Shown here: piece by piece, positions 9,060 through 26,879 of the stretch
Layout: each line of letters opens with the position of its first letter
How positions within the stretch are numbered: the first letter of the stretch is position 1
Source: Flavobacterium sp. IMCC34852
GTDB lineage: Bacteria > Bacteroidota > Bacteroidia > Flavobacteriales > Flavobacteriaceae
Assembly (NCBI RefSeq): GCF_030643905.1
Contig: NZ_CP121446.1
Span: 682,001 to 746,000 of the forward strand
Reading direction: 5' to 3'
DNA length: 64,000 bases
Position numbers and translations under genes: made by a program
Notes under the pieces: model-generated
Told to the model about the DNA's origin: nothing
The model's input: only the letters and a program-made list of their open reading frames with translations
Databases searched by the model: none

Positions 9060-9168
9060 GATATTATGTTGTTTAGTGGTTGTTTTTTTAGTGAAGTAAA
9101 TATAATACTTGCCGTTAGTTTTAAGCCATTAGTTTTTGTATTTTTATGAAAATAATTTCAAAGTTGGT

Positions 9169-10764: not shown

Positions 10765-10798
10765 GGGATTAGGGAAAAGTAAAAAGGGATAAGAGAAA

Positions 10799-10923
10799 AG
10801 CCCTTCGACAGGCTCAGGGTGACAGCTTGCGTTTGTATTGTTTTTAGTTTTTACAGAAGATTTACTTTATTCAACAAAAACCAATTGATTATACTGTTGT
10901 CAACCTAAGCTTGTCGAAGGGCT
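10799..10923. repeat. REP-like inverted-repeat element
   Basis: Two 25-base ends, AGCCCTTCGACAGGCTCAGG.. at 10799-10823 and its near-complement at 10899-10923 (three mismatches), enclose about 75 bases of AT-rich DNA. The core CCCTTCGAC..CTCAGGGTGACA recurs near 21724-21747. It lies between convergent genes. It is non-coding, of extragenic-palindrome or MITE type. Confidence 0.6.
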
Positions 10924-10935
10924 TCTGAAGTTTGT

Positions 10936-12273
10936 TTAAAAAGCCTCGCCGTGTTGGGATAAGTCTAAGCCCATATTTTCTGATTCTTCTGAAACGCGTA
11001 TTGGGATGATGATATTGGTTAGTTTGAACAACAAATAAGCACCACCAAAGGTAAATACCGAAACCAAAACCAAAGCCAACATGTGATGCCCGAAGATGTT
11101 CCAGCCGCCGTATAACAAGCTTGCGTTTTCTCCTTTGGCAAAGATGGCCGTTAGGATCATTCCCATAATGCCGCCTACGCCGTGACAAGCGAATACGTCT
11201 AAAGTGTCGTCTATTTGTTTTAACTTTTTCCAGTAGACCATTTTGTTGGAGACTATGGCGCCGATGAAACCGAAGAAAATACTTTGCGGAATGGTTACAT
11301 AACCTGCCGAAGGTGTAATGACTACCAATCCAACCACAGCGCCGATACAAGCACCGAGGGCTGATACTTTACGTCCGTTCATTCGATCAAAGAATACCCA
11401 CGATAACATAGCGGAAGCCGAACAAATTGTGGTAGTGGCAAAAGCCATGGCCGCTGTAGCATTAGCCGCCAAAGCCGAACCGGCATTAAAGCCGAACCAA
11501 CCGAACCACAGCATTCCTGTGCCTAATAAGACAAACGGAATGTTGGTGGGAATGTGCTCGCTGTTTTTTCTTTTGCCTAAAACTAAAACACCAGCCAAAG
11601 CTGCAAAACCCGCACTCATGTGAACGACTGTTCCACCTGCAAAGTCCTTTACGCCGAAAAAGCTTCCCAAGAGACCGTTTGGGTGCCAAATCATGTGGCA
11701 TAAAGGCGTATAGATACAAAGGGTAAACAAACAAATAAAGAGCAAAAAGGAGATGAAACGGATGCGTTCCGCGAGGGCGCCGGTGATGATGGCCGGTGTT
11801 ATGACAGCAAATTTCATTTGGAACAAAGCAAACAAAATAAAAGGTATCGAAGAAGCCATGGTTTTGTGCGGGTGCATTTCGACATAGCTAAAGAAAGCAA
11901 AATCAAATGGGTTGCCAATGATGCCATAGTGAACGCCGTTGATGGTTGGGCCAATCGGGGCGCCAAAAGAAAGCGAAAAACCAACCGTAACCCAAAGCAA
12001 ACTGATTACACCCAAACAGATAAAACTTTTGAGCATGGTGGAAATGACATTCTTTTTCCCGACCATACCGCCGTAAAAAAATGCTAAGCCAGGCGTCATT
12101 AATAAAACCAAACAAGAAGCGGTAAGTAACCAAGCCACATCGGCAAAGCTGATGGTGTCAACGGCATTGAATGCGTCGTTGTTTTCGGCTAGTTTTTCGG
12201 GCCAAAATAAGCCTGAGATGGCGACTAAAGTAATGATGAGAAAAGAAACTATCCAACGTTTTTCGATTTTCAT
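10936..12273 (-). CDS. amt: Ammonium transporter (Amt family)
   Basis: About 445 aa from the ATG giving MKIEKRW; the three codons upstream start with TTG. Eleven or so membrane segments are visible. Amt signatures: FYGGMVGKKN, the pore His regions GTVVHMSAGFAAL and DVFACHGVGGIMG (twin-His pair), and MIWHPNGLLGS. It carries NH4+/NH3 across the inner membrane. No glnK/PII gene is adjacent, unlike in many bacteria. The first segment resembles a signal sequence. Confidence 0.95.
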   Translation of the reverse strand: MKIEKRWIVSFLIITLVAISGLFWPEKLAENNDAFNAVDTISFADVAWLLTASCLVLLMTPGLAFFYGGMVGKKNVISTMLKSFICLGVISLLWVTVGFSLSFGAPIGPTINGVHYGIIGNPFDFAFFSYVEMHPHKTMASSIPFILFALFQMKFAVITPAIITGALAERIRFISFLLFICLFTLCIYTPLCHMIWHPNGLLGSFFGVKDFAGGTVVHMSAGFAALAGVLVLGKRKNSEHIPTNIPFVLLGTGMLWFGWFGFNAGSALAANATAAMAFATTTICSASAMLSWVFFDRMNGRKVSALGACIGAVVGLVVITPSAGYVTIPQSIFFGFIGAIVSNKMVYWKKLKQIDDTLDVFACHGVGGIMGMILTAIFAKGENASLLYGGWNIFGHHMLALVLVSVFTFGGAYLLFKLTNIIIPIRVSEESENMGLDLSQHGEAF

Positions 12274-12506
12274 AAATAACAATTTTTATAACTACCCCTA
12301 AATTTACATAGGCAAAGTTATAAATAATTACGAATTATGAATTACAAATTACAAAATTGAGGGGGTGTAAATTAATTTTTGTGTAAATTTTAATGAAATT
12401 GAATTGTTTTTGAGGATTTGGAAAATAACCACTTTGTTTTTGAGAAAAGCATAAGTTAGGTTATAAAACAAAAGCCACAAACCCCTTTTGTTGCATTCAT
12501 AGAGCA

Positions 12507-12700
12507 GTCGTCAGTTCGAGTTCGCCTGCAAGGCGAGTATCGAGAACCGTTGTTAAGTGTAAGGGTTCTCGATACATTTTGTTTCGCCACTTTGAGTCGC
12601 TAGATTAATCGGGATTATCCGGAAGCGCAACAAAACACTCGAACTGACGACCTTTTGATAGGCTACATTTATTGCAAAGCTAAAAACACTCGAACTGACG
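12507..12700. repeat. Nested inverted repeats between amt and a secreted-protein gene
   Basis: An outer pair GTCGTCAGTTCGAG (12507-12520) / CTCGAACTGACGAC (12638-12651) is perfect. An inner pair GTATCGAGAACC (12537-12548) / GGTTCTCGATAC (12564-12575) is also perfect. A third copy ACTCGAACTGACG is at 12688-12700. A related ACTCGAAGTGACG occurs near 21707. The rest of the 12274-12704 gap is AT-rich with no visible gene. Confidence 0.65.
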
Positions 12701-12704
12701 GTTC

Positions 12705-13649
12705 TTACTTTTTCAGTGTGGCTTTTTGTAATTCTTTTAAATCACTTGATTTGAAATTGGTGGCTGAGCCGGTATAGGCTGAGTAAATGATTTCCCCGGT
12801 TTGGGAGTTGGTTACCGTTACAAATTTCTCGGTGGGTGTTTTGATGAATAGTAAGTAATAGAACGGCGTGGCGTTGGTTAGGATTTTATCGTTGAGTTCT
12901 GCTGTGGGCAAGACTTTATAGGCTTGGGTAAAGTCGTCGAAGATTTCTTTGTCGGTGTACTTTTTGCTTTCGTCGTCGGCGTTTTTGGGGAACTTAATCA
13001 TCACATAATCGGGGATGAATAGTGTTGCCGAAGCCAGTTTTTGTAGCTCACCAGTGTTGGCGATTTCGGTTTTCGCGGCACACTCGGTTCCTTTTTCTAA
13101 TAAAGTACAAAGCTGTTGTATATAATTGCTCAACACCCCGGTACCCCAGTTTTTGAAATGACCGGCCGCATCATAGTCCATTTTGTATAAAGCGCTTGGG
13201 TTGTTTTGGGCGAAGAAATCGGCGAAGAGTTCTACGGTAGCCACTACGATTTTATCTTGCTGATTGAAGTGCCGGCGTTTTTTGGGGTCGTAGGTGTATT
13301 TGCCGTTGGTGGTCCAAAGCTCTAAATAAATGCGGGTTTCGGTGGATGCCAAGGCGCTGTTGGAAGTCGTCATATTGGCCCCGATGGTTACGAAGCTATT
13401 GTTGGGTGCGATGTTTTTTTCTACCTCGGTGTATTTGATGCATTCGACTTTACCGAGTGTCCAAGCTTTTTTAATAGCCGCCACATACCCCGCTGCCGCA
13501 GGCGAAGCCGGATCTTTCATAGCGAAGTAAGTAGTGCCTTGTTTGATTTTGGTTACTTCGGCGGTATTGGTGAGGGTGATTTGGGAGAAGCTGAATAGAG
13601 GGAATAGGCTGACTAGGATGAAACTGAAAAATGAGTTTTTTGATTTCAT
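12705..13649 (-). CDS. Secreted protein of unknown function
   Basis: 314 aa. The signal peptide MKSKNSFFSFILVSLF ends near SFSQ. No known catalytic motif was recognised. The mature part has a VAAIKKAWTLGKVECIKY segment and a C-terminal half with FYYLLFIKTPTEKFVTV, suggesting an alpha/beta exported domain. Two Cys (TLLEKGTECAAK and the KVECIK region) could form a disulfide. The gene lies directly downstream, in its own direction, of the palindrome array at 13702-13898, so that array forms its 5' region. Confidence 0.75.
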   Translation of the reverse strand: MKSKNSFFSFILVSLFPLFSFSQITLTNTAEVTKIKQGTTYFAMKDPASPAAAGYVAAIKKAWTLGKVECIKYTEVEKNIAPNNSFVTIGANMTTSNSALASTETRIYLELWTTNGKYTYDPKKRRHFNQQDKIVVATVELFADFFAQNNPSALYKMDYDAAGHFKNWGTGVLSNYIQQLCTLLEKGTECAAKTEIANTGELQKLASATLFIPDYVMIKFPKNADDESKKYTDKEIFDDFTQAYKVLPTAELNDKILTNATPFYYLLFIKTPTEKFVTVTNSQTGEIIYSAYTGSATNFKSSDLKELQKATLKK

Positions 13650-13701
13650 AGGGTAAGGGATTGGTTTAGTGAGGTAAAGTTAGTAGAAAAGATAATATAG
13701 G

Positions 13702-13898
13702 TTGTGACAAAAATGAAATGAAAAATAAAATTGACACGCTTATTGTGTCAAAAAATAATTTGAAAACAAAATTGACACTGATTTGTGTGAAAAAGGAATT
13801 TGAAAACAAAATTCACACCGTACCGTGTGAAAAAGTAATTTGAAAAACGAATTCACACCGATTCGTGTGAAAAAATAGTTTTAAAACAAAATACACAC
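13702..13898. repeat. 40-bp-period array of palindromes with variable cores
   Basis: Four complete units begin at 13731, 13772, 13812 and 13852. A right half-unit lies before them (13702-13730) and a left arm after them (13892-13898). Each unit is a 7+6/7+7 palindrome followed by about 20 A-rich bases resembling AATTTGAAAACAAAA. Arms and cores: TTGACAC-GCTTATT-GTGTCAA; TTGACAC-TGATTT-GTGTGAA; TTCACAC-CGTACC-GTGTGAA; TTCACAC-CGATTC-GTGTGAA. The core differs in every copy while the arms are kept, and the third arm base changes in a paired way. The remaining 13899-14103 stretch is non-coding and holds short CACAGATGACACGGAT-like and AAATCCGCGTTAACGGAT-like motifs. Confidence 0.85.
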
Positions 13899-14103
13899 AG
13901 CATATAAAGGATAATAGTATTAACTAAGGATGTAGGTCCCGTTTGCGGTGTAGGATTGACTGTTTTAGGGAAGAATTGGAACACAGATGACACGGATGGG
14001 ACTGATTGTCAGGGATTTTTGGTGGGTTGGATAGTTTGGGGGATTGGATTGTAAATCCGCGTTAACGGATGAAGTAGGTATTTAATACTTGCTGTTGGTA
14101 AAT

Positions 14104-15054
14104 TTAAGTTTTGTTACCAATTCTAATCCAATGGTTTTTTAAAGCTTCAAGAGAAGGGTTTATTTGACGAGTTTTAATTTCAATATTTTCTCCTTGTTCT
14201 AAATAATCAAGGAGCCACTTCTTATTTTCAAACTTATTTCTAATTAGAATTACTTTATAATTATTATCTAAAGTAAAAAAACCTTTTTCAAATGCTTTGT
14301 CGTGCATTAAGCAAAGACATAATCCATTATCGGTATTACCTCTTAAATCTTTATTGTCAGCCCATCTCGTAATATGCCCACTAATTAAAAATCCTTTGCC
14401 CTCAACATTACATCCTGGGTAACAACATTTATAATTAAAATTGCTTTTGACATTTTCTGAAAACTCTTGGTGACCTATTCTTTGTTCTAATTCTTTAACA
14501 ACAACATCTGTTTTTGCTGTATTTTTTATTGTTTTCCTAACTTCTAATAATTCATCTGAAATTTTAGAAGCTAAAAAACTATCAAATTCAGAGAAATAAG
14601 CTCCATTCAAACATTGAAGCTTGTCTCTTTGTATGACATAAAATAATCTCTTTTTTTGAGCCTTTGATAGCTTTTTATTTTCTAAAAAATAATTTCTTAA
14701 TTCTTGATTATAATTTGTGAAAAAGTCATTTAATGGAATAATTGGATTTAACTCTTCAAAATCAGAAAGATCTACTTTGTAAAATTCATCTGTATAACTC
14801 CAAATATGATTTTTACTTGAAGTGAATTTTGTCAAATAACCATCAGTAGCAGCAATTGAGTATCCAACAAAATATTTAATCCCATTATTTTCTTTAATAT
14901 GGAATATTAAATCACCTTTAGTTACATCATTAACTAAGTTCCAAAAAGGCCAATTAGCACCATCAGCTTTTTTGGTTGGCGCCCAAACACTTTCTTTAAA
15001 GTTCCAACCTTTATCGAATATTGTGTTATTTGCACGGAGTTCTAACCAAATCAT
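14104..15054 (-). CDS. HNH endonuclease with N-terminal PUA/EVE-like domain (defence island, gene 5)
   Basis: 316 aa. The C-terminal half holds an HNH_2-type nuclease: YKCCYPGC (zinc Cys pair) near residue 208, SGHITRW near 229, and NGLCLCLMHDKAFEKG near 250, including the second zinc site and the HD-AF signature of restriction-type HNH enzymes. The N-terminal approximately 110 residues (MIWLELRANN, VTKGDLIFHI, YFVGYSIA) resemble the PUA-like EVE/ASCH fold used by modification-dependent enzymes to read modified bases; this is fold-level inference. It starts 29 bases after the DUF3883 gene stop and is the last gene of the five-gene unit. It is probably the DNA-cutting component. Confidence 0.8.
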   Translation of the reverse strand: MIWLELRANNTIFDKGWNFKESVWAPTKKADGANWPFWNLVNDVTKGDLIFHIKENNGIKYFVGYSIAATDGYLTKFTSSKNHIWSYTDEFYKVDLSDFEELNPIIPLNDFFTNYNQELRNYFLENKKLSKAQKKRLFYVIQRDKLQCLNGAYFSEFDSFLASKISDELLEVRKTIKNTAKTDVVVKELEQRIGHQEFSENVKSNFNYKCCYPGCNVEGKGFLISGHITRWADNKDLRGNTDNGLCLCLMHDKAFEKGFFTLDNNYKVILIRNKFENKKWLLDYLEQGENIEIKTRQINPSLEALKNHWIRIGNKT

Positions 15055-15083
15055 AAATTAAACTTATTAGGTTTTAACAATAC

Positions 15084-16058
15084 TTATATGTTAAAATTAG
15101 CTGTAATTTTCAGTTTATCAGTTTCTTTAGTCCATTTATCACTGTCAAGGATATTAGTAAATGGGTTCTGAATCATGACTGGTATATAGTTTTTATCATT
15201 TATTGAATCTCTATTTACCAAATAAATCCAGTAATTCTCATGCTTATATTTAGCAACTTGAAATTCGTTTCTTGACCAGTAAAAATATGGTGTTTTCCCT
15301 TGATATGATTTTACCTCAATGAATCTATTATATTCTGTATCATAATGATTATTAAATGAAGCAATATCGTAGCCTTCATTAGCAACATATTCTGCAATCC
15401 AATTAACTTCTTTGTTGTTTAATCGCTTTTTTTCAAAGTTTAGCACATATAATTCAGCCTCTTCTCCATAGATTTGTTGTTGTTGCATTTGTTTTTCCAG
15501 TGCATCAACTCCTATTTTTCTTTTCCTTATTTCAGGTAAAACAGTTTTATCAAATAATTTTTTATATCTATTGTTTACGATATAAGTATTTAATTCTAAA
15601 GTTGGATGTCTTTGGATAATTTCAAAATCTAAGAGAAGCTGTTTAAAACTTGAGAATTTAAATCCAAATGCTGAATTACTTATTTGAAGAGACTTGTATA
15701 TAATGTCATAATTGAGATGTTCGGAATTAAAAATATTAAATAATTCTTCATCATTTTTTAGAGTTAAAAAGAGAAATTCATTGAATTTATCAATCATTTG
15801 CTTATGGCTATTTAATGAGTCTAAAATTTTATCATTAACGCTAACAAAATCATTTTTTAAAATCAAAATTTCAATATGTAATGCTAAAGGAATACAACCA
15901 TCGAAAATGGAACGATTATCAAACATTTTGTTATATGTCAGTTGACGTATATCATTAATTTTCCAATCAAAATTATTACTCTTTTTTATTGTATCAAGTA
16001 AGTAATAATAATATGATGGTGTTCCAAGATTATTATATTTTCTTAGATCTTTCAGCAT
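15084..16058 (-). CDS. DUF3883 domain protein, PD-(D/E)xK nuclease-like (defence island, gene 4)
   Basis: 324 aa. The C-terminal third matches DUF3883: GYDIASFN near residue 226, FIEVKSY near 244, FYWSRNEF near 259, then the WIYLVNR strand. The Asp of GYDI and the E-V-K triad are placed as in PD-(D/E)xK nucleases. The N-terminal 190 residues are helical, without a recognised domain. The gene overlaps the helicase gene by 26 bases, so the two are translated together. DUF3883 is frequent in restriction and other defence loci. Role inferred: nuclease or DNA-binding effector beside the helicase. Confidence 0.8.
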   Translation of the reverse strand: MLKDLRKYNNLGTPSYYYYLLDTIKKSNNFDWKINDIRQLTYNKMFDNRSIFDGCIPLALHIEILILKNDFVSVNDKILDSLNSHKQMIDKFNEFLFLTLKNDEELFNIFNSEHLNYDIIYKSLQISNSAFGFKFSSFKQLLLDFEIIQRHPTLELNTYIVNNRYKKLFDKTVLPEIRKRKIGVDALEKQMQQQQIYGEEAELYVLNFEKKRLNNKEVNWIAEYVANEGYDIASFNNHYDTEYNRFIEVKSYQGKTPYFYWSRNEFQVAKYKHENYWIYLVNRDSINDKNYIPVMIQNPFTNILDSDKWTKETDKLKITANFNI

Positions 16059-18030
16059 AATTTTTTAGCAAGTCAACTATAATGTCGGTTTCATCGTTAT
16101 TATCAATTCTAGAGAATAGAGGGATTTCATCATCTATAATTTTTTCCATTCGTTTGACTTTTTCATTAAGTCTATTATTAATTACCGTGTCAATAGAGTT
16201 CTTGGAGACTATGTAGTAGTAATTAGTAATTGTATTTTCGGGTAAGCCCACACGATGAATTCTATCTTTAGATTGAATGAAATTTGAAGCATTATAATCA
16301 CGCTCAAGGTAGATTGCATTATGACACCCTTTGTGTAATGATATTGATTCAGCTACTGAAAATGGGTTGGCAATAATTACTGAAAAATCAAAATTTGTTG
16401 AGTCATTAAATAGTTTTATGGTTGTTTCTCTTTCTTCTTGAGGGATTTCTCCAATTAGAAGTTTACTTTTAATTTCATTCTTAATTAAAAATGACTGCAA
16501 CTCTTTTGCGTTTTGTATAAAAATAGTCCAAATTATCACTTTACCATTTTTTGGAAATATTTCATTTTTAATGATTTTGAAGATTTCGGTAAATTTTACT
16601 GGAATTTCAAATTTTGAATAGTTGCATATTTTATTGAAGAACTCTGAGTCATCAATAAATTCATCACTTAATGTTAAAAATTGAATGTTTGGGTCGGCGT
16701 CCCATTCTTCATTTCCTTGTTCAAGTGAATTTTTTAGTGTTTTTGCTAAAAGTGATGGATTGGTTGAAGCTTGTCTGAGTCTTATTAATTTGGCTCTGTT
16801 AAGCACATCTTTAACACTTCCTGAAGGATTATTTCTTAAAGACGGAAGATATTCATCTTCTATAAAATTATAAATTTCTTGTTGATATGATTCCATATCA
16901 ACATAAACTATCTTTTCATTTATTTTAGGAAGATTTAAATCTTTCTTTTTTATTCGAATAAAAAAAGGAGAAATGTTTTCTTTAAGTATATTTACTCTAT
17001 CACTATCTGGTTCATTATTTAAAGTTAAATCTTGTAAATTTTGATAATGATACCCTAATATTTCTTTATATTTAAATGGATAGATAAACTTGTATAGATT
17101 GTAAATGTCCTCATATCCATTGGGTAAAGGAGTACCAGTTAAAATCACTCTTGCAGTTGCTTCTTTAGAAATTTCAGTAACACTTGAACCCCATATTCTA
17201 TTAGGGTTTTTAATTCGATGGGCTTCATCAACCACTACCATTGTTTTATGCTTTTTCAAGAAATCAATAATTTCATTTTGAAACGAACTTACCCCGCCAT
17301 GAAAAATTAATCCTACTTCAGCCGGATTGGATGAATAAAAGTATTCTAATTTTTCCTTTTTAGAAATGTTTATATCACCCGATAATCTTTGAGAATTAAT
17401 TTTTTTTCCGAAGCACTCAGCATATTCATTTTCCCAAGGAGCAAATGAAGATATTGGACCTATGACAATTAATCTGTCGACGTGTTTTGGGTCATTTTTT
17501 GGTAAGCTTTTTAAATAAGCATAAGCACCGTAAACGATTGAAGTTTTGCCAGCACCAGGGACTGCAAAATTGCATGCGTTTTGAGAAAAAGCTAAATGAA
17601 AAGCAGATAGTAATTGAAGTGGATATAGCGTTCTTTTTAGTTCTTCTTGTAATATTTTCTGGAAATTATCAAATTCACTAACTAATTCAGGATGTTTTTT
17701 AAACTCATCATTTCTTATAGAATATGCTTTCAGTGAAAAGTTTTCAAAATTTAATTCTTCTCTATGAAAATTCTGGATATCATCTTCTATGTTTCGAGAG
17801 TAATCAAATTCAAAATCATATTTTTGGAATAAATCTTGAATCTCTTGAAGAGTACTAATTTGATCTTCTAATCTGAAAGGAATTAAAATTGATTCTTCTT
17901 TATCAATATAACCTAACCTTTTTAAAGATATTAAAATTCTTTTATTATTGCGTATATCTTGTATTTCTCCAGAGATATTAAAATATTCTGAACCATTATT
18001 AGAAGTTATATCAATGCTTAATTTTATCAC
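16033..18030 (-). CDS. SNF2-type DEAH helicase/translocase (defence island, gene 3)
   Basis: 665 aa with a GTG start that shares one base with the stop of the preceding gene. Walker A VPGAGKTS is near residue 160, the DEAH box VVVDEAHRIKN near 266, LTGTPLPNG near 294, and motif VI QSKDRIHRVG near 589. The RecA pair is complete, so ATP-driven translocation is expected. The 130-residue N-terminal part is not recognised. Known: SNF2-type motors occur in DISARM (DrmD) and several restriction systems, but no DrmA or DrmB partner is here. It probably moves along DNA for the nearby nuclease-like proteins. Confidence 0.9.
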   Translation of the reverse strand: MIKLSIDITSNNGSEYFNISGEIQDIRNNKRILISLKRLGYIDKEESILIPFRLEDQISTLQEIQDLFQKYDFEFDYSRNIEDDIQNFHREELNFENFSLKAYSIRNDEFKKHPELVSEFDNFQKILQEELKRTLYPLQLLSAFHLAFSQNACNFAVPGAGKTSIVYGAYAYLKSLPKNDPKHVDRLIVIGPISSFAPWENEYAECFGKKINSQRLSGDINISKKEKLEYFYSSNPAEVGLIFHGGVSSFQNEIIDFLKKHKTMVVVDEAHRIKNPNRIWGSSVTEISKEATARVILTGTPLPNGYEDIYNLYKFIYPFKYKEILGYHYQNLQDLTLNNEPDSDRVNILKENISPFFIRIKKKDLNLPKINEKIVYVDMESYQQEIYNFIEDEYLPSLRNNPSGSVKDVLNRAKLIRLRQASTNPSLLAKTLKNSLEQGNEEWDADPNIQFLTLSDEFIDDSEFFNKICNYSKFEIPVKFTEIFKIIKNEIFPKNGKVIIWTIFIQNAKELQSFLIKNEIKSKLLIGEIPQEERETTIKLFNDSTNFDFSVIIANPFSVAESISLHKGCHNAIYLERDYNASNFIQSKDRIHRVGLPENTITNYYYIVSKNSIDTVINNRLNEKVKRMEKIIDDEIPLFSRIDNNDETDIIVDLLKNYAERSKKI

Positions 18031-19466
18031 TATAGATTTTTATGAATTTGATATCCCAAACTTTGGATGGTTTTTGTTAATAATTTAGCTCCCTCTTTTT
18101 CTTGTTCAGGAATCTTCTCTGTGTCAATTTCTTCCAATAATTTTACAATGTGAGATAATAATCTTTTTGGAGATTTTTTTTGGAGAGTATTATTAACTAA
18201 GTCAGCCAACTTTTCTGTAAGTGCCAAAGAGTCTGGTTTTGAGAAATTTTTACTATTAATATTAATTGACTCTAGACTGTCAATTGCTTTGTTTAAAAGC
18301 TTAACCGGCTCATCTTGTGATTGTTTATTCCTTAATTTCTGATAATGAATATCAACATTCTCATCAATTAAGTCACCAATATTATTTTTAAGATTAGTGT
18401 CACGACTGTTTAAATGAGCTTCTAAATTATTAATATTAAAATCTATTTGTTCTTCTTTGAAGCTTGAAATTATCTTTTCATGGTTACTTAAGAAACTTGA
18501 CCAAATTTCACGAGTACCAAAAAAATGATTTTGTTTTTGACCTTGAGCAAGATACCTAAATTTCTCATTTTTAAATTTCATTCGGATTAAATCAAAAGCA
18601 ACCGACTTCAATTCATCTACATCGCTATTTTTATAACCATCAAATGCTTTTGCAGAAGTCTCACCATAAAATGTATTCAACCAATTTGTCAAACCTCTGA
18701 ATTGCTCTTCTCTTTCATCTAATGCAGTATATATACCATTATAATCTTGATATTCTAAATACTCATCCATTAGATTCATGACTTGAAGACTATACTCAAT
18801 GTCATTTGCACTATTTATGTTTTTATAATTTCCAATCCAATTATAAATTAAATCAATAGCTTTTTTGTCAACTCTAACTCCTTTTTTTTTGTCTCCTTCG
18901 TTAGGATAATTACTTTCACTTAATTGTTGGTATAGGCGTTGAATTTTTAAATAAATTTCAATTGGATTATAATCCAACTTTCTTTCCTCGCCTAATTGAT
19001 ACTTAGTTTCAAATTTTTCAATTTCAATAGGATTTCCGGCATATTCAACAGGAAGTATAACTGCTTTAAAATAATCAATTTCGTCAATCTTATTCAACAG
19101 CATAGCTCTTCTATTGCCATCAATAATGATTCCGTCCTTTGTTATAATTCCAACTTTTTCTTGTTTAAGTTTTTTTAAACTCTCAAGAGTCTCTTTATTT
19201 TTTGAAGGTTTTGAGTCCCATAATAATTTTTCTATTAATTCTTTACCTTCAGTAGATTCTGCATCAATTAATTGACGTTGGTTTTCATATGATTTTGTTC
19301 GACTTAAAATTCTACCATTATATTTATTATATACCAAGAATCTTAAAGGTATTTCATAAACATCCATTGGCTCTAATCTATCTTTCCAAGGAATTTCAAT
19401 TTTTCCAATTGGCTTATCGGTTTTTTCGATATCTTGGATTTTTAATATTCTTGTCTCTCTATTCAT
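18030..19466 (-). CDS. ParB-like N-terminal domain protein (defence island, gene 2)
   Basis: 478 aa. The N-terminal region has the ParB/sulfiredoxin-like pattern: PLRFLVYNKYNGRI, then GIIIDGNRRAMLLNKI near residue 115, and a KAVILPVEY strand. This fold can bind nucleotides (CTP in true ParB) or act on DNA. The remaining 300 residues are helical and not recognised. It begins 3 bases after the methyltransferase stop and shares one base with the helicase start. It is not a chromosome-partition ParB: there is no ParA neighbour and the helix-turn-helix pattern is not evident. Its task may be DNA recognition or regulation. Confidence 0.75.
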   Translation of the reverse strand: MNRETRILKIQDIEKTDKPIGKIEIPWKDRLEPMDVYEIPLRFLVYNKYNGRILSRTKSYENQRQLIDAESTEGKELIEKLLWDSKPSKNKETLESLKKLKQEKVGIITKDGIIIDGNRRAMLLNKIDEIDYFKAVILPVEYAGNPIEIEKFETKYQLGEERKLDYNPIEIYLKIQRLYQQLSESNYPNEGDKKKGVRVDKKAIDLIYNWIGNYKNINSANDIEYSLQVMNLMDEYLEYQDYNGIYTALDEREEQFRGLTNWLNTFYGETSAKAFDGYKNSDVDELKSVAFDLIRMKFKNEKFRYLAQGQKQNHFFGTREIWSSFLSNHEKIISSFKEEQIDFNINNLEAHLNSRDTNLKNNIGDLIDENVDIHYQKLRNKQSQDEPVKLLNKAIDSLESININSKNFSKPDSLALTEKLADLVNNTLQKKSPKRLLSHIVKLLEEIDTEKIPEQEKEGAKLLTKTIQSLGYQIHKNL

Positions 19467-19469
19467 AAT

Positions 19470-21188
19470 CTAATTAGAATTTGCTGTTGAAGAAATTTTA
19501 TTTATCGCATATAAAGCGAAAAGTTGCTTGGTAGGTATGATTTTTTTGCTTTCAAAAACAATAGTTCCGTTTTGGATAAACTGAGGCTCTTCGATATCAA
19601 TTTTGTCAATGATTCGTTTTACTTCATCCACTAATTCAGTGGGTTCCAGAATTGTGTTATTTGATTTTTGAACTTCATACATTTCTTGAAGTTGAGTAGC
19701 ATTGCCAATCTTTTCTGAAAAGCCATTATTAATAATTTTAATAAACAGTTTTCCCGATGGGTATTTAGAAATAATTGACTCTAAAGTTTTATAATATCCA
19801 TCTTCTATGTGTTGTATAGGGAAGCCTTTACCGGTTCCATATTGTATGGAAGTTAGCCATTTTCCAGTTGCCTTTCCGCCTTTTTCAATATCATAGTTTG
19901 ATAGTGTAACGGTTAGATTTCCCTCTTTAATAGGGTGTCTTCTAAATCGGGACCCTTTATTTTTAATAGGAGGATTGTTAAATGTTTTTAAAGAATAATT
20001 ATTTAGGTTTAGTACCCCTTTTAAATTTGGTTCTGTTGCTACTTGTAATTCATCTTCATGTTTTATTTTTAATTCATCAAGTACTATCTTGGCAAAAGCT
20101 CTACTCACAGAACAACAAACAGCGTTTCCAACTAACCTCCATTTATTATTTTCGCCTCCTATAAATTGATAAGTTATTGGGAATCCCATGATGATAGCAG
20201 CTTCTCTAACGGTTGGAAGTCTGAATTCTCCATCGCCTTTTCTTTTTACTTCTGATTTATAGATTATGGACTCTCTTGAATTGGCAATCTTAGTAGCTGT
20301 AATTGTTCGGCTGGGTTTGTTTTCGTTTTCTGGGAATGACATTTTACCCATGAATGGGTGGTTTGTTTTCCAATATTTAGAAAATTTCCATTCAATTTCA
20401 TAAACGCCTGTATCATAAAAATGGTCTGTAATTTTATCTTTCTCTATTTCAATTTTATATTGAATATCTTTAATTTTAGCAGTACTCTTTTTTTCAAAAG
20501 GAGAAGGAAAATTTCCTTTTATTAAGCTAATGGAATTATAAAGAGGCAAACTTAATTGAGATTCTTTTTGTTGATGCGTTGGCTTAGGAATAACAAGTTT
20601 TTTCTTTTTTATTATTTCACCAGAGATAACTCTTTTTCTGGATTGTATTGAACCATAATCTGCTGAATTGATTATTGTAGTGTTGTCATATAAATCAATA
20701 GCTACATTATTAGCTCCAATTTTGTGTTTTTTCGCCCATTCCTCTAACCCTAAATCTTTGAAAGTGTATGTTGTTTGTAAATATCTTTTTGAATTGACCA
20801 CATTTTCCATAAACCAAGCTTTCAATGTAGAATTTGGCTGATGTTTTTTCACTGCAACTACTCTTAAAAAAGTTTCTGTTAAATCTACCCCTAGAGATTT
20901 GTCTGCCGTTCCTGATTTATTAGAACTTGAAAAACTTACACAAGGAGGGCTGCCAATAATAACATCTGTATTAGGAAGGTTATCAATTTCTTCAATAGAG
21001 GTTTTAAAATCTAAGATATTTTTTACCTCACATTCTAGATTGAAATTATGATTGAATGTATCAACAGCGGGTTTCCAATAGTCGTAACCATATTTGATTT
21101 CAAAGCCCATTTGTCTGAAACCTTCAGAAAATCCGCCTGCACCGCAAAAGAAATCGATTACTGTTAAGTTGTCTGATTTATTGTTCAA
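19470..21188 (-). CDS. DNA (cytosine-5) methyltransferase with C-terminal extension (defence island, gene 1)
   Basis: 572 aa from a TTG codon. No ATG lies between it and the upstream in-frame stop, and motif I (FFCGAGG) falls at residues 13-19, so the start must be close. Catalytic PPC is near residue 81, ENV near 128, QSRKRV near 181 and motif X GNAVCCSVSRAF near 354, giving a complete C5 methyltransferase. About 200 residues follow motif X, with GTGKGFPIQHIEDG and no recognised domain, which is longer than usual. It transfers a methyl group from SAM to cytosine in an unknown site. It leads the five-gene unit and probably marks self DNA. Confidence 0.93.
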   Translation of the reverse strand: MNNKSDNLTVIDFFCGAGGFSEGFRQMGFEIKYGYDYWKPAVDTFNHNFNLECEVKNILDFKTSIEEIDNLPNTDVIIGSPPCVSFSSSNKSGTADKSLGVDLTETFLRVVAVKKHQPNSTLKAWFMENVVNSKRYLQTTYTFKDLGLEEWAKKHKIGANNVAIDLYDNTTIINSADYGSIQSRKRVISGEIIKKKKLVIPKPTHQQKESQLSLPLYNSISLIKGNFPSPFEKKSTAKIKDIQYKIEIEKDKITDHFYDTGVYEIEWKFSKYWKTNHPFMGKMSFPENENKPSRTITATKIANSRESIIYKSEVKRKGDGEFRLPTVREAAIIMGFPITYQFIGGENNKWRLVGNAVCCSVSRAFAKIVLDELKIKHEDELQVATEPNLKGVLNLNNYSLKTFNNPPIKNKGSRFRRHPIKEGNLTVTLSNYDIEKGGKATGKWLTSIQYGTGKGFPIQHIEDGYYKTLESIISKYPSGKLFIKIINNGFSEKIGNATQLQEMYEVQKSNNTILEPTELVDEVKRIIDKIDIEEPQFIQNGTIVFESKKIIPTKQLFALYAINKISSTANSN

Positions 21189-21211
21189 GGTAATTAAAAT
21201 TTGATTTTCAA

Positions 21212-21219
21212 CAAATATA
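21212..21219 (-). promoter_or_regulatory. -7 promoter element of the defence island
   Basis: TATATTTG on the minus strand matches TAnnTTTG, 23 bases before the TTG start of the methyltransferase gene. It is the only clear promoter element for the island. Confidence 0.5.
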
Positions 21220-21301
21220 AATTATTAATCAATAGGTAAGAGATCACATCTGAATTTAAAAATAGTAAAAATCAAATTTAAAAAAGAAATTTGGGACTGT
21301 T

Positions 21302-21547
21302 TTACGGATTTACGTAAAAATAATTCTCCAAAGCCCTTCTAAACAATTCCGTATCCAATTTCAAAAGTTCTTCTTTCACATTCCATCCCTCAATGTATTC
21401 CTCATCTTCTTTACAGATTTCTTGACCGTTTAGTTTTCGAGTTAAGATATCGCTAAGTAGGACGTCATCGCAGCTGTCATAAAGTGGATAATGTTTTTCG
21501 ATGAAGTCCCAATATTCAAATCCTGAGTTGTTTTTTTGTTCTTGCAT
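21302..21547 (-). CDS. Small acidic hypothetical protein
   Basis: 81 aa, starting MQEQKNNSGF, rich in Asp and Glu, with no signal peptide, membrane segment or known motif. Predicted helices run from WDFIEKHYPLYD to ELFRRALENYF. It lies 113 bases upstream of the methyltransferase gene on the same strand, so it could be a leading gene of the island or an unrelated cytoplasmic protein. It has no toxin or antitoxin signature that I recognise. Confidence 0.55.
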   Translation of the reverse strand: MQEQKNNSGFEYWDFIEKHYPLYDSCDDVLLSDILTRKLNGQEICKEDEEYIEGWNVKEELLKLDTELFRRALENYFYVNP

Positions 21548-21651
21548 AGCTTTGTTTTTGATTACTAATTTAAGAAAATGAGGTGATTTATAAGTCTACA
21601 ATTATTAGCACAAGTAGTATAATTTATGAACAATGGTTTTGCCTATAGGAA

Positions 21652-21747
21652 TGACAACGCGAAGGCTTCTCGATAAATTTCATATCGTTCGCGAACGATT
21701 AGAAACACTCGAAGTGACGGCTGCCCTTCGACTGCGCTCAGGGTGAC
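21652..21747. repeat. REP-like repeat cluster beside the defence island
   Basis: The stretch holds a perfect 16-bp palindrome ATCGTTCGCGAACGAT (21684-21699), an ACTCGAAGTGACG copy (near 21707) related to 12638-12700, and CCCTTCGACTGCGCTCAGGG (from 21724) related to 10799-10923. No gene is visible in 21548-21811. Confidence 0.55.
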
Positions 21748-21761
21748 AAAATGTGCAAAAC

Positions 21762-21790
21762 AAAAAACCCCAACGGCTCCGTCAGGGTTT
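21762..21790 (-). terminator. Intrinsic terminator of the M13 peptidase gene
   Basis: On the minus strand AAACCCTGACGG / CCGTTGGGGTTTTTT forms a stem with a T run, 22 bases beyond the M13 gene stop. Confidence 0.8.
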
Positions 21791-21811
21791 CTATATTATT
21801 AAAATTATCTC

Positions 21812-23827
21812 TTACCAAATCTTCACACGCTTTTCAGGCGCTAAGTACAACGAATCGGTTGGTTTAATATTAAACGCTTCGTAGAACTCCGGAATGTTGC
21901 GCACGGTTCCGTTGACTCTGAATAAGGCTGGTGAGTGTGGGTCGGAGGCAATTTGACTGCGCAAGGCTTCGGCACGGGATTTTTCTAACCATACTTGTCC
22001 CCAACCCAGGAATACGCGTTGCATGCCGGTGAAGCCATCCATTACCGGTGCTTCTTTGCCGTTTAAACTGGCTTTGTAGGCTTTGATGGAAATGCTTAAT
22101 CCGCCTAGGTCGCCTATGTTTTCCCCTAAGGTAAAGGCACCGTTGACATTCAAATCAGGGAAGGCTTTGAAGCTGCTGTATTGGTCAACCAAAGCGGCCG
22201 TTTTCTTTTTGAAAGCGGCTAAATCTTGTGGTGTCCACCAGTTTTTCATCACGCCTTTGCCGTCAAAAGCACTGCCTTGGTCGTCAAAACCGTGGCCTAT
22301 TTCGTGACCGATTACCGCTCCGATGCCGCCATAGTTTACGGCATCATCGGCATTCAAGTCAAAGAAAGGCGGTTTTAAAATCGCGGCCGGGAATACAATC
22401 TCGTTTAACGAAGGGTTGTAGTACGCGTTTACCGTTTGCGGGTTCATTCCCCATTCGGAACGGTCTACCGGTTTGCCCAGTTTGGCCAATTGTCGGTTGT
22501 ATTCAAATTCGGCGGCACGTACACCGTTACCGTAGAAATCGTTTTTGGCTATTTTAAGGGCTGAGTAGTCTCTCCATTTGTCAGGGTAGCCAATTTTAAT
22601 CATAAAATTGTCCACTTTTTTCAAGGCTTCTTTCTTCGTCGCTTCACTCATCCAATCTAAGGTTTTGATGCTTTCGGCATAGGCTTTCAAGAGGTTTTTT
22701 ACCATACCGGTCATGCGCTCTTTGGCTTCTGGCGAAAAGTGTTTTTTGACATACACTTTCCCCACGATTTCTCCTAAACCTCCGTTTACCGTTTCGACAG
22801 CGCGTTTCCAATCTTCCTGTTGTTTCTCGGTACCGTATAAGGTTTTGCCGTAAAATTCAAAGTTTTGATTGTCTAAAGCGGTGGTCAAACTTCCGGCTGA
22901 TTTGTTAATCACACCCCATTTTAAATAGGTTTTCCAAGTGTCAATTGGGGTGCTTTTGATGATGTTGTTCAGGCTTTTGGTGTATTCTACCTGAGTCACT
23001 ACTAGTTTTTTCTCTTGGTCAACCCCCGCATTTTTTAACATGGCATTCCAGTTGAAATCGGGCATTAGGGTTTTTAAATCTTTTACGGCGTAAGCATTGT
23101 ACAATTTTACAATGTCGCGCGTGTCTTCTTTTTTCATGTGGTTAGAAGCCAAAGTGGTTTCCAAAGCCATGATGGTGGCAGCACTTTGAGCCCCATTAGG
23201 CAGGTTGGCCAATTGGAACATCTTTTCAATGTGTGCTACATATTTTTTGCGGATGTCGGTCATCTTGGCATCGGTAGCCAAATAGTATTCTCTTTCCGGC
23301 ATACCTAAACCACCTTGCCAAGTGATTAAAGTGTATTTTGTAGGATCTTTAAAGTCGGTATAGACCGAAACATTAAACGGAATAGCCACGCCTTTTCGGT
23401 TGGCTTTTCCGAAATAGGCGGCCAAGTCATCGTAAGAAGCAATGGCATCGATAGCGTTTAATTCCGGTTGGATAGGCGCTACGCCTTTGGCATCACGACC
23501 TTTTCGGTCCATAAACGAAGCGTAGTAGTCACCTATTTTTTGTTCGTCGGAACCTTCGGCATTACTGCCTTTGGCGGCTTCTTCGATGATGGCTTTGACG
23601 TCTTTTTGCGATTGGTCGTACAGCATATCAAAAGCCCCATAAGAGGCTTTGTCTGCCGGAATCTTGGCGGTTTTCATCCAAGCGCCGTTGACATAAGCGG
23701 CAAAGTTATCGCCGGGTTTTACCAGCGTATCCATATTTTTTTTAGTGATACCCGAAGTGAGTTCTTTTTGGCTACAAGCTGTTAGTAAGACAGAAGCCAG
23801 TAGCAAAGTGATTTTTGCATTCCTCAT
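21812..23827 (-). CDS. M13 family metallopeptidase (neprilysin/PepO-like lipoprotein)
   Basis: 671 aa. The lipobox LLTAC near residue 18 predicts a lipid-anchored exported protein. The C-terminal catalytic domain has HEIGHGFDDQG near residue 507 (zinc His pair and Glu) and ENIGDLGG near 567 (third ligand Glu plus Asp), and the family's NAYYNPSLNEIVFPA substrate strand. M13 enzymes cut oligopeptides. Length and domain order are normal (M13_N, then M13). It is a single gene with its own terminator. Confidence 0.95.
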   Translation of the reverse strand: MRNAKITLLLASVLLTACSQKELTSGITKKNMDTLVKPGDNFAAYVNGAWMKTAKIPADKASYGAFDMLYDQSQKDVKAIIEEAAKGSNAEGSDEQKIGDYYASFMDRKGRDAKGVAPIQPELNAIDAIASYDDLAAYFGKANRKGVAIPFNVSVYTDFKDPTKYTLITWQGGLGMPEREYYLATDAKMTDIRKKYVAHIEKMFQLANLPNGAQSAATIMALETTLASNHMKKEDTRDIVKLYNAYAVKDLKTLMPDFNWNAMLKNAGVDQEKKLVVTQVEYTKSLNNIIKSTPIDTWKTYLKWGVINKSAGSLTTALDNQNFEFYGKTLYGTEKQQEDWKRAVETVNGGLGEIVGKVYVKKHFSPEAKERMTGMVKNLLKAYAESIKTLDWMSEATKKEALKKVDNFMIKIGYPDKWRDYSALKIAKNDFYGNGVRAAEFEYNRQLAKLGKPVDRSEWGMNPQTVNAYYNPSLNEIVFPAAILKPPFFDLNADDAVNYGGIGAVIGHEIGHGFDDQGSAFDGKGVMKNWWTPQDLAAFKKKTAALVDQYSSFKAFPDLNVNGAFTLGENIGDLGGLSISIKAYKASLNGKEAPVMDGFTGMQRVFLGWGQVWLEKSRAEALRSQIASDPHSPALFRVNGTVRNIPEFYEAFNIKPTDSLYLAPEKRVKIW

Positions 23828-23882
23828 AATTTTAGTTTGATGATTAGGACGCTAAAGTAATTAAAAATATTAGGTTATGGTG

Positions 23883-25868
23883 TTAAAAGCTGTAGTTGAG
23901 GTTGAGGAAAATATTTCTTCCCATGCGTGGGATTTTGTTCCAATCGGCATAGGTGGTGTAGAAGGCATCCAGCAGGTTTTCAATCCCCAACTTGGTATAT
24001 AGCAGACTTCCCGGCAATACAAATTTATAACCGAAATTAGCGTTGAGTAAAGCAAAATCGGGTGTTTTGGTTTCTCCATAGGCTGAGCCAAATCGGGTTT
24101 GAGTCGCATGGCCCACGCCTTCTAAATTGGCATTGAAACGGTTTTGGGTAAAAGTCAAAGCGGTTCGGTAACTCAACGGGTTGATGAGTGGTAAATTATC
24201 GTGGTTGCTGTCTTTTCCCAAACTGTACAACAAGTTTATATTCCATTTCCAGTGTTGGTTTAGGGTCCATTCCGAATTAAAATCGACATTAAAAATCGTC
24301 GCATAATTCAAAGCTGTGTACAATTTCACCCCATTGGCTCCAATGGTCATTGGTACTAATGATTCCACAGGGGTGCCAATGATATAATTGTTGATGTGGA
24401 AATAAGAGGCTGTGATTTTGGCCTTGATTTGTTCTTTTTTGTACCCAATGAATGCATTGCTTTCCCAAGATTTTTCATTTTTTAAATTCGGGTTGCCCAC
24501 ATAGTCAAAACGGTCGGAGCTGTTGAACAGATAGAAACCATATCCTTCAGACACTGATGGTGCTCTTTCGCCATAACCTAACCCCAAGCCGTATTCCCAA
24601 CCGTTTTTGGTGAAGTTGTAATTGGCCGCCAGACTTTTTAGGAAACGCGATTTTTGGGCTTGCATTTCGGGGTAAAAAATCTGCAGACTTTGCAGGCCGA
24701 AATCACTCGCCACCTTATTGGTATGATTGCCGAAGGACACCGACATTTTCAACCCCGAATGGCAATTGAATACCCAATGGTCTTCTACAAACCAACCGGT
24801 GTAGAAAGTGCGGACATCGGGCCAAGTGTACATGAACATGCTGTTTTCATCCGGATTGTTCGGATACATGGTCATTTCAGCTACGGATTGGTTGTAAAAC
24901 GAATTCAGATTCGCCAAAAAATGGTGGTTGTTTTTCACGCCGCTGATTTTAGAATACAGTCCGAAAGTTTTGCTCCAACCCGGCATGTCCATGTGAATCG
25001 GAACCGATGGACGAGTCGTGTCATCCATACGGTGGGTGATGGTGTTGAAATAGATTTTGGTTTCCCAGTCTTTTAGCCAAGGCGATTTTGGGAGCACTAC
25101 ATATTTGACTGAAGTGATTAAGGCTTTCGCCAAAGACACGTCCATAGGCAAAGCCGGATAACCCACATCAGTAGCTTTATCGTAAATCACGGAAGCTTCG
25201 AGGAGTTTATTTTGGCTGAATTTAAAACCCGAAGTGGCGGAGAAATTGAGTTTTCGGAATTGGGAATAAAGGATTTCTTTGTCATTTCCGGCGGCATAAT
25301 TATCGGCTTCGCGAAACATCACATCGGTATCAATGTAATAAGTGCTGTCTGCATAATTGATTGACGAACCAATTATTTTTTGGCGGTTGTTGGATTCAAA
25401 ACCGGTGTTGAGACCAAAGCTCCAAAGAGGTTGGCCGAATTTGCTTTGCGTGCGTTTCAAATCAATCGCGCCGCCAATGGTGGACCCAAAGCAACTGCCT
25501 TGTTGGCCTGAATTGACTGTGGCTTCCGAAAGATTAGACACTTCGATATAGGAAGTAATCGGGTCCATTTTATCGGTACAAGCACCAAAGATGCGCATAC
25601 CGTCGATGGTGATTAAGGTTCTTTCGGTCGCCATGCTGTTGAGTATGGGTTCCCATGCGTAAGCGCCACGTTTGACCAAATCGACTTTGCTTCCTTTGTC
25701 GAGAAACTCATCGATGGAAGCTAGAGATTTGGTTAGTTTTTCGTGGATTTGTGTTTTTTTGCCAATGACAATGACTTCTTTTAAATCTTTGGGCACCAAA
25801 GAATCTTTTACTTCTTGGGCATACGAAAAGAAGCTACTGAACAATAGCAACAGGATTGTATTTTTCAT
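23883..25868 (-). CDS. TonB-dependent outer-membrane receptor, OprC/NosA-like (copper)
   Basis: About 661 aa from ATG 25868; the preceding in-frame codon is GTG. A signal peptide ends near FSYAQ. The plug domain begins EVIVIGKK, and the 22-strand barrel ends in aromatic NLNYSF. Two motifs match the copper site reported for Pseudomonas OprC (CxxxM plus HxM): ACTDKMDP near residue 95 and THRMDD near 279. NosA/OprC proteins import copper, needed by N2O reductase, and a nosZ gene is 20 kb away. The lipoprotein upstream, rich in Met and His, fits a metal role. Copper specificity is inferred. Confidence 0.8.
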   Translation of the reverse strand: MKNTILLLLFSSFFSYAQEVKDSLVPKDLKEVIVIGKKTQIHEKLTKSLASIDEFLDKGSKVDLVKRGAYAWEPILNSMATERTLITIDGMRIFGACTDKMDPITSYIEVSNLSEATVNSGQQGSCFGSTIGGAIDLKRTQSKFGQPLWSFGLNTGFESNNRQKIIGSSINYADSTYYIDTDVMFREADNYAAGNDKEILYSQFRKLNFSATSGFKFSQNKLLEASVIYDKATDVGYPALPMDVSLAKALITSVKYVVLPKSPWLKDWETKIYFNTITHRMDDTTRPSVPIHMDMPGWSKTFGLYSKISGVKNNHHFLANLNSFYNQSVAEMTMYPNNPDENSMFMYTWPDVRTFYTGWFVEDHWVFNCHSGLKMSVSFGNHTNKVASDFGLQSLQIFYPEMQAQKSRFLKSLAANYNFTKNGWEYGLGLGYGERAPSVSEGYGFYLFNSSDRFDYVGNPNLKNEKSWESNAFIGYKKEQIKAKITASYFHINNYIIGTPVESLVPMTIGANGVKLYTALNYATIFNVDFNSEWTLNQHWKWNINLLYSLGKDSNHDNLPLINPLSYRTALTFTQNRFNANLEGVGHATQTRFGSAYGETKTPDFALLNANFGYKFVLPGSLLYTKLGIENLLDAFYTTYADWNKIPRMGRNIFLNLNYSF

Positions 25869-25881
25869 CACAGTCAGATTT

Positions 25882-25917
25882 AAAAAGGTCTCACCAGTCT
25901 TAAAGCAAGACCTTTTT
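25882..25917 (-). terminator. Hairpin between lipoprotein and TonB receptor genes
   Basis: AAAAAGGTCT / AGACCTTTTT (10-bp stem, 16-base loop) lies just after the stop of the lipoprotein gene and before the receptor gene. It may attenuate rather than fully end transcription. Confidence 0.6.
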
Positions 25918-25926
25918 GAAGTGGAT

Positions 25927-26775: not shown

Positions 26776-26879
26776 TTTTGTACATTTTAGATCATAAGGA
26801 TTTCATTGGAACAGTTTCCAATAGATTTTGGACATGCATCGTCCGGTCAACCTGGATGAGATTGATTAAAGTTTAGTGT

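Follow-up and report, generated by a model that had tools for sequence, protein, structure and literature searches.

A conserved methylase-ParB-SNF2-NOV_C gene set with an accessory EVE-HNH nuclease: a candidate ATP-dependent restriction cassette in Flavobacterium

Introduction

Each protein domain discussed here is already known from restriction systems, as are ATP-dependent restriction-modification (R-M) with a separate motor and nuclease (CglI) and SNF2 operons with a cytosine methylase (MORC type). What appears to be new is a ParB-type protein, an SNF2 motor and a NOV_C nuclease as one module. This module lies within five minus-strand genes at 14104-21188 of a 64,000-nt stretch of Flavobacterium sp. 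IMCC34852 (hereafter the window; positions 682,001 to 746,000 of NZ_CP121446.1, in a single-contig genome of 3.17 Mb), which an original prediction, made from the sequence alone, had put forward as a candidate undescribed defence system. The genes encode, in order of transcription, a C5-cytosine DNA methyltransferase, a ParB-like protein, an SNF2-family ATPase, a NOV_C (DUF3883) protein and an EVE-HNH nuclease. Judging from the gene content, a defence or restriction cassette is highly probable; more specifically, the locus is probably a horizontally moving, ATP-dependent cassette of the R-M type, to which the EVE-HNH protein adds an optional type IV arm. Loci of relatives are labelled L plus a number.

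Comparison with described systems

In CglI and NgoAVII the part of the nuclease is taken by an R protein containing PLD and B3 domains, and we know of no ParB-fold subunit or NOV_C protein in these systems. Like the present locus, they place a DNA methylase gene beside separate genes for an ATPase and a nuclease, and their translocation and cutting are described as ATP-driven (PMC4267653; PMC5737866). Their ATPase is described as a DEAD-family protein, whereas here it belongs to SNF2, and Pfam detects no PLD domain in the five proteins, among which NOV_C is the nuclease candidate. MORC-type R-M operons combine a cytosine methylase, an SWI2/SNF2 protein and an HNH or other nuclease, often with Vsr, but are centred on a GHKL/MORC ATPase that is absent here, and the sections of that work on these operons mention no ParB-like or DUF3883 gene (Iyer et al., 2008; PMC2292703). 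The COG1743-DUF499-SWI2/SNF2-nuclease-EVE system, proposed to act separately on unmodified and modified DNA, likewise unites a methylase, an SNF2-nuclease and EVE; it differs in its methylase family, in DUF499 and in having a stand-alone EVE, and the term ParB does not occur in the text of that paper (Bell et al., 2020; PMC7641849). ParB-methylase-HEPN operons and DUF3883-SNF2 fusions, with DUF3883 described as a novel REase domain, place the same families in an R-M context, but the order methylase-ParB-SNF2-DUF3883 is not described in the sections that treat them (Anantharaman et al., 2013; PMC3710099).

The original prediction knew of no named counterpart, and the profile searches that it proposed agree: PADLOC does not assign the five proteins to one known system, and PADLOC and NCBIfam give no system-level match. 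The matches are to components, namely type II methylases, ZorD (5e-23) and DrmD (6.6e-14) for the motor, TmtA and PDC-S36 for NOV_C, and HNH restriction enzymes. No named system uniting ParB, SNF2 and NOV_C appears in PADLOC, NCBIfam, PHROGs or the open-licence PMC papers searched. DISARM, Zorya and the BREX-related SNF2 proteins resemble the locus in the ZorD/DrmD-like motor and perhaps in a C5 methylase like DrmMII, but DrmB, ZorA/ZorB and PglZ do not occur among the five proteins. The DrmMII match of the methylase (5.5e-25) is outscored by generic type II methylase models, and DrmA appears in PADLOC only as a 19.7-bit match to the motor. For Zorya there is likewise the ZorD-like SNF2 match alone, ZorA and ZorB being absent from the PADLOC matches of the five proteins. 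The predicted absence of DrmB, Pgl, Dnd and HsdS holds for these proteins in Pfam, PADLOC and NCBIfam, with the methylase represented by the best 25 of its 49 PADLOC matches; for DISARM, the search for DrmB covered the five proteins on the same terms and not the rest of the genome. HsdM, HsdS and HsdR of type I R-M systems are also missing from the five proteins in these three databases.

Composition of the cassette

Calling of open reading frames (ORFs) reproduces exactly the predicted gene count, the shared direction and the junctions of +3, -1, -26 and +29 nt:

19470-21188, minus strand: C5-cytosine DNA methyltransferase, 572 aa, TTG start; Pfam DNA_methylase, 1.5e-37
18030-19466, minus strand: ParB-like protein, 478 aa; ParB N-domain with an IDGNRR motif, a middle part aligning with the ParB DNA-binding part, and a helical C-terminus
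16033-18030, minus strand: SNF2-family ATPase/translocase, 665 aa, GTG start; Pfam SNF2-rel_dom, 3.7e-26, and Helicase_C, 5.2e-9
15084-16058, minus strand: NOV_C (DUF3883) protein, predicted PD-(D/E)XK nuclease, 324 aa; Pfam NOV_C, 4.3e-18
14104-15054, minus strand: accessory EVE-HNH nuclease, 316 aa; EVE/PUA at about residues 1-175, HNH with H227, N243 and H251; Pfam HNH_2

Four of the five proteins score above the curated Pfam cut-offs (C5 methylase, SNF2, NOV_C/DUF3883 and HNH_2). The genes form an AT-rich island, as predicted: GC is 25.8-31.6% in every 1-kb bin from 14001 to 21000, against 34.2-45.8% in the bins across the rest of the window, with 35.8-45.8% in the flanking bins 9001-14000 and 21001-27000 (in round figures, 26-32% against 36-46%).

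Conservation and distribution

The order methylase-ParB-SNF2-NOV_C is kept in all 15 loci that have a long methylase, namely the window, six genomes or metagenome-assembled genomes retrieved with the ParB protein and eight others from further searches, all of them reached through ParB. The HNH gene occurs in two of these (the window and L021), and in two of the 47 loci annotated overall. The five genes had been predicted as one unit; the first four do travel together, while the gene-neighbourhood survey rejects the five-gene unit and leaves HNH as an accessory. Identity to the window falls to 54% (methylase) and 41% (ParB) in L024; for L021 it is 57% in ParB, 93% in NOV_C, 78-79% in SNF2 and methylase, and 67% in HNH. 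Three of the 15 loci have a damaged member: the SNF2 gene of L022 is split by inserted DNA, the ParB gene of L023 lies in two frames, and NOV_C of L006 is incomplete. The insert in L022 (5636-8865) carries two opposite-strand ORFs, and methylase, ParB and NOV_C are full length, so that restriction has perhaps been lost there and methylation kept. The SNF2 gene of L086 (6204-9306) is also split.

The 47 loci reach down to ParB identities of 35% and lower by way of viral contigs, plasmids and prophage, and form 37 clusters at 90% ParB identity. The tally leaves out L088 (no ParB ORF by profile), L043 and L044 (same contigs as L007 and L004), L083, L089-L099, L101 and L102 (contigs already counted), short search loci, and 13 of the 16 plasmid and 2 of the 3 phage records with a ParB match. 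SNF2 directly follows ParB (-29 to +15 nt) in 43 of the 47. The exceptions are L081 and L082, whose contigs end inside ParB, L023, where SNF2 stands behind the split ParB, and L048, which has no SNF2. NOV_C is present in 34 loci, and five of the 13 without it are cut by the end of the available DNA. In genome samples, a single-sequence ParB query (E<=1e-5) matches one of 150 near relatives, and alignment queries match 7 of 395 phylum, 10 of 397 family and 3 of 395 class genomes; these counts include the window's own genome, come from partly overlapping samples and contain some distant types. Such sparse occurrence, together with the low GC, fits horizontal transfer. The contigs bearing the window, L006, L021, L022 and L024 are each at least 2 Mb long.

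Proteins of the module

Neither Pfam nor PHROG matches the ParB-like protein, its best E value in NCBIfam and PADLOC is 0.017, and a sequence search of solved structures returns noise only. The protein belongs to a family of at least 1494 homologues, and two relatives carry the UniRef name 'ParB/Sulfiredoxin domain-containing'. Its predicted structure matches ParB, KorB and Noc over residues 30-325 (Foldseek, VIA-align), a span whose equivalent in KorB and Noc presumably contains the helix-turn-helix (HTH). G117, N118, R119 and R120 (GxRR) are invariant in all 19 aligned sequences. With the GxRR of the N-domain and a DNA-binding part both present, the protein can be placed, on its model, among the clamps of the ParB/Noc/KorB type, in agreement with the ParB fold originally predicted. 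DUF262 proteins are absent from the 50 VIA-align matches listed for the ParB model and SspE appears in Foldseek at E 2.4 and 7.2 only, although kinship may still exist in both cases.

The SNF2 protein, predicted as a motor and recognized as such by Pfam (SNF2-rel_dom, Helicase_C), contains Walker A GAGKT, DEAH, LTGTP and QSKDRIHR motifs, which are kept in all 15 aligned relatives, with DEVH in some. Its first ~130 residues are variable, and its closest solved relatives are DDM1, SNF2 and ISWI. In NOV_C, E202, D231 and E248-x-K250 are invariant in all 13 aligned sequences; a sequence search of solved structures gives noise only, and a search of plasmids with the protein gives no match. Both this putative E-D-ExK site and the catalytic residues of HNH bear out the prediction of two nuclease-like proteins, and NOV_C is likely to be the main cutter. 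The SNF2/NOV_C junction, measured in 33 loci, is an overlap in 29 and is exactly 26 nt long in 12. The latter comprise six Bacteroidota loci, three of them close relatives (L003, L004 and L007), a Streptococcus equi prophage (L027) and five viral contigs related to L027. The motors of the window and of L016 and L027 are only 44-47% identical, and persistence of the overlap across this distance points to coupled translation under selection.

The methylase has PPC at 81-83, ENV at 128 and QxRxR at 182, and its closest solved relatives are M.HaeIII, DNMT1 and M.HhaI. Pfam and these intact motifs support the prediction that it could mark self DNA. A C-terminal domain of ~190 residues (~382-572) is found in all 15 long-methylase loci (E <= 3e-82), and its profile matches nothing outside these loci among the 3160 ORFs of the loci examined. 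A sequence search of solved structures with this domain gives noise only.

Sequence recognition

Because of its HTH, the ParB-like protein was the expected reader of the methylation site, a role that co-variation across 12 cassettes does not support. The comparison covers the 15 long-methylase loci less L006 (incomplete), L022 and L023 (broken genes). Neither the ParB HTH (partial r 0.12, permutation p 0.25) nor the ParB N-domain (partial r 0.04, p 0.43) follows the methylase recognition domain, which methylase motifs IX-X, the positive control, track closely (0.75, p below 0.001). None of the tested parts of ParB, SNF2, NOV_C and the methylase C-terminal domain is significantly linked to the recognition domain; the nearest are the N-terminal half of NOV_C (0.30, p 0.078) and the methylase C-terminal domain (0.27, p 0.077). 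Within the module, ParB and the SNF2 N-terminus give a partial r of 0.28-0.34 (p 0.053-0.086), and the ParB C-terminus and the N-terminal half of NOV_C give 0.33 (p 0.085).

Single pairs of loci tell the same story. L046 and L004 have identities of 0.95 in the recognition domain, 0.93 in the SNF2 motor and 0.93-0.95 in NOV_C, against 0.38 in the ParB HTH. Conversely, L005 and L004 share a ParB HTH (0.93) but differ in recognition domain (0.45) and methylase core (0.67). Divergence in ParB goes with divergence in the SNF2 N-terminus, whose identity is 0.57 between L046 and L004 and 0.77-0.83 among L003, L004 and L007; yet it is also 0.71 between L005 and L004 despite their nearly identical ParB, and the overall link falls short of significance. 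ParB thus seems to have diversified under some other influence, phage inhibitors perhaps. The predicted role of ParB as a 'sensor or clamp' may still hold: its fold fits a clamp, but its sequence does not vary together with the recognition domain of the methylase.

The methylase C-terminal domain offers another candidate. All 15 loci with this domain have no restriction-enzyme gene in view, and it is absent from all 11 loci with a restriction enzyme and a methylase in view. It could replace the restriction enzyme as reader, and its being the coupling element is a tenable idea, if somewhat short of probable.

Partner genes and exchanged effectors

A BanI/DpnII-like restriction-enzyme gene stands just before ParB in 13 of the 47 loci, accompanied in 11 of these, where in view, by a short C5 methylase. 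These enzymes were called by Pfam in L016, L027 and L047, and by a profile built from these and L020 in the rest. Other loci have a Dam-type D12 methylase (L025, L026, L050 and L052), an N6/N4 methylase with a BglII-like enzyme (L100; L103 and L105 share this family of methylase) or type III mod/res genes (L029 by annotation, L084 by Pfam). This recurrence of several kinds of R-M genes beside the module supports a role in defence. Vsr repairs mismatches left by deamination of 5-methylcytosine (5mC), and the presence of a Vsr-type gene in seven of the 47 loci (by Pfam in L016 and L024; by a two-sequence profile in L023, L051 and L079-L081) fits lasting 5mC. The BanI/DpnII-like version is found on viral-collection contigs and in one prophage record (L016, L017, L019, L020, L027 and L076-L082), and phages may use it against rivals. 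The restriction-enzyme gene of L016 is in two ORFs, and the methylase of L027 may be in two. A weak C5-methylase-like profile match (53 bits) lies beside L104/L106.

The nuclease slot looks as if it were swappable, since L028 has no NOV_C next to SNF2 but an SNF2 protein with an N-terminal PLD domain (PLDc_2, 2.5e-8). L050 (6204-11187) has the order phosphorylase-superfamily, ParB, SNF2 and Dam-type methylase, without NOV_C; 17 nt separate the end of its phosphorylase gene (PADLOC 'Effector, PN-superfamily', 3.6e-25) from the start of ParB, and other systems employ phosphorylases of this kind as toxic effectors. In L048 (8996-12738), which has neither SNF2 nor NOV_C, ParB is followed by an LmuA-like alpha/beta hydrolase and a C5 methylase, the hydrolase gene (4.3e-15) beginning on the last base of ParB; this is possibly an abortive version. 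Being single loci, L028, L048 and L050 are leads. The SNF2 protein of L030 carries an alignable extension. L030 (5674-10143) lies on an Exiguobacterium plasmid; its ParB gene is preceded at a distance of 1-3 kb by two ParA-family genes, which may connect its ParB-SNF2 pair to partition.

The EVE-HNH protein

The putative EVE/PUA reader noted on the HNH protein is borne out by sequence and predicted structure: the model matches the EVE-HNH nuclease VcaM4I (Foldseek, 2.4e-15), and the predictions that had been proposed for the ParB-like protein and for the HNH N-terminus returned the ParB/Noc/KorB fold and an EVE domain, respectively. H227 aligns with H224 of VcaM4I, and H227, N243 and H251 are invariant in all 26 aligned sequences. 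Enzymes of the VcaM4I type (type IV) share both domain folds, the catalytic His and the base-pocket proline. They differ in that the gene here stands at the end of a C5 methylase cassette and that pocket residue W82 aligns with a tyrosine, with no partner of Y130 identified. VcaM4I and other EVE-HNH enzymes favour DNA with 5-hydroxymethylcytosine (5hmC) over 5mC DNA in the cleavage assays described (PMC7897488), and elsewhere an HNH nuclease was silenced on arrival of an R-M system, a documented conflict (PMC8989522).

The whole EVE-HNH model is matched in two of 296 phylum genomes (33 have any match, the rest to one half) and in two of 319 genus genomes; the samples overlap and the two genomes are the same. 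Both matches stand directly behind the cassette, in two species of one genus. Protein databases contain 290 relatives, whose neighbourhoods were not seen, and viral contigs yield no HNH relatives, the 30 hits being pattern matches only. The protein is probably a modified-DNA arm, a claim held somewhat less firmly than that for NOV_C as main cutter.

Proposed mechanism and alternatives

The C5 methylase would mark host DNA, in keeping with its intact motifs and with the Vsr genes beside some relatives. The ParB-fold protein may then load as a clamp on unprotected DNA and call in the SNF2 motor, which would travel along the duplex. NOV_C, whose gene overlaps that of SNF2 and whose motifs are those of a PD-(D/E)XK nuclease, would cut. 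Where no separate restriction enzyme is present, specificity may come from the methylase via its C-terminal domain and not from ParB. The EVE-HNH protein, given its fold, may be an optional type IV arm, directed at phages whose modified cytosine would let them escape the first arm.

In one alternative, ParB would itself be the reader, its HTH binding the methylase site only when unmethylated and then loading SNF2 and NOV_C. The alignment of the model with ParB, KorB and Noc and the lack of any other obvious reader in cassettes without a restriction enzyme speak for this. However, HTH identity is independent of recognition-domain identity, and the contrasts of L046 and L005 with L004 break the link in both directions. 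The number of cassettes is small, a diverged recognition domain is no proof of a new target, and HTHs 38% identical could share a site; even so, ParB as reader appears quite improbable. The module may otherwise be a non-specific follow-up device that acts on the ends or gaps left by a partner nuclease, here EVE-HNH, and destroys the cut DNA. Such a device would need no specificity of its own, and the module does accompany BanI/DpnII-like, BglII-like and type III enzymes. This is rather unlikely, as the profiles searched reveal no such partner within 6.5-7.5 kb in 13 of the 15 long-methylase loci; in these the module either starts cutting alone or uses an unrecognized or unlinked enzyme.

The HNH gene may also have nothing to do with the cassette and have been picked up beside it by chance in this lineage, as its 29-nt gap, its separate start and its absence from 13 of the 15 long-methylase loci would allow. 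The position of both whole EVE-HNH matches directly behind the cassette, in copies whose HNH (67%) is more alike than their ParB (57%), argues against chance, which we regard as unlikely, though less so than the follow-up role. Finally, the task of ParB and SNF2 could be to partition or maintain a mobile element, with the methylase-nuclease pair as an addiction module. The ParB fold, the several relatives on plasmids and viral contigs, the ParA-family genes of L030 and three Lactiplantibacillus plasmid relatives annotated as partition proteins are in line with this. Yet none of the five genes encodes ParA, the window and the four relatives named above are on contigs of at least 2 Mb, and R-M genes recur beside the module, making a selfish, non-defensive cassette very improbable.

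Several points weigh against the preferred reading of an R-M-type defence cassette with its specificity in the methylase. The link between the C-terminal domain and the lack of an enzyme is largely confounded with phylogeny, the contrast being mostly between distant lineages; L047 is the sole locus of the same family (Flavobacteriaceae) with an enzyme and a short methylase. Since every locus was reached by way of ParB or SNF2, lone long methylases without the module would not show. Specificity is unexplained in loci with a Dam-type methylase that have neither an enzyme in view nor the C-terminal domain. L015 and L050 keep ParB-SNF2 without a recognized adjoining nuclease, and L048 keeps ParB and methylase without SNF2. 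A 5mC-reading EVE-HNH protein would turn on the methylated DNA of its own host, barring a difference in specificity; by analogy with the characterized enzymes, specificity for 5hmC or for another context is the likely escape from this conflict.

Flanking sequences

The repeat-rich surroundings that had been described are present. A 40-nt unit whose inverted ends are TGTGTcA/TGACACA-like is repeated five times in tandem to the left of the HNH gene (13702-13902); it has one further, weak match in the genome (73% over 75 nt). A 16-nt repeat occurs on both sides of the gene set (12634, 12685 and 21704), in none of 100 shuffles of the window, and in 12 copies genome-wide, with no hits for a reversed-pattern control. 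The dispersed repeat with core AACACTCGAASTGACG has direct copies at 12561-12701 and 21662-21720, which enclose the island and one host gene, and seven of its 12 genomic copies form one array with ~160-nt spacing near 2.537 Mb. These flanking repeats may have helped the island in or out. An empty-site test with the left-flank gene gave weak partial matches only, in two of 39 relatives. One further feature lies just upstream of the methylase start:

21194-21282, no strand assigned: AT-rich imperfect inverted repeat, possible operator/promoter region; 30-nt arms, 77% complementary, 29-nt spacing; may be chance in AT-rich DNA

A promoter scan found 55 candidates against 43.3 in shuffles. An 81-aa ORF of intermediate GC upstream of the methylase (21302-21547), without a significant family match, is probably outside the cassette.

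Implications

A ParB-type clamp, usually with SNF2, may be a portable, methylation-licensed surveillance unit that has been joined to many modification systems (C5, Dam-type, N6/N4 and type III) and to several effectors (NOV_C, the PLD-SNF2 of L028, the LmuA-like hydrolase of L048 and the phosphorylase of L050), some versions disabling the cell instead of cutting. This remains a speculative generalization, leaning towards the doubtful; if true, it would be, to our knowledge, the first case in which a complete ParB (N-domain and HTH), and not the DUF262 branch, serves immunity. That ParB alleles differ under constant methylase specificity raises the question of what ParB senses. If the proposed mechanism is right, a large ParB-like family would be the hub of a widespread ATP-dependent restriction module, and chromosome-partition clamps, eukaryote-like SNF2 motors beside C5 methylases, and DUF3883 nucleases would be linked in one pathway.

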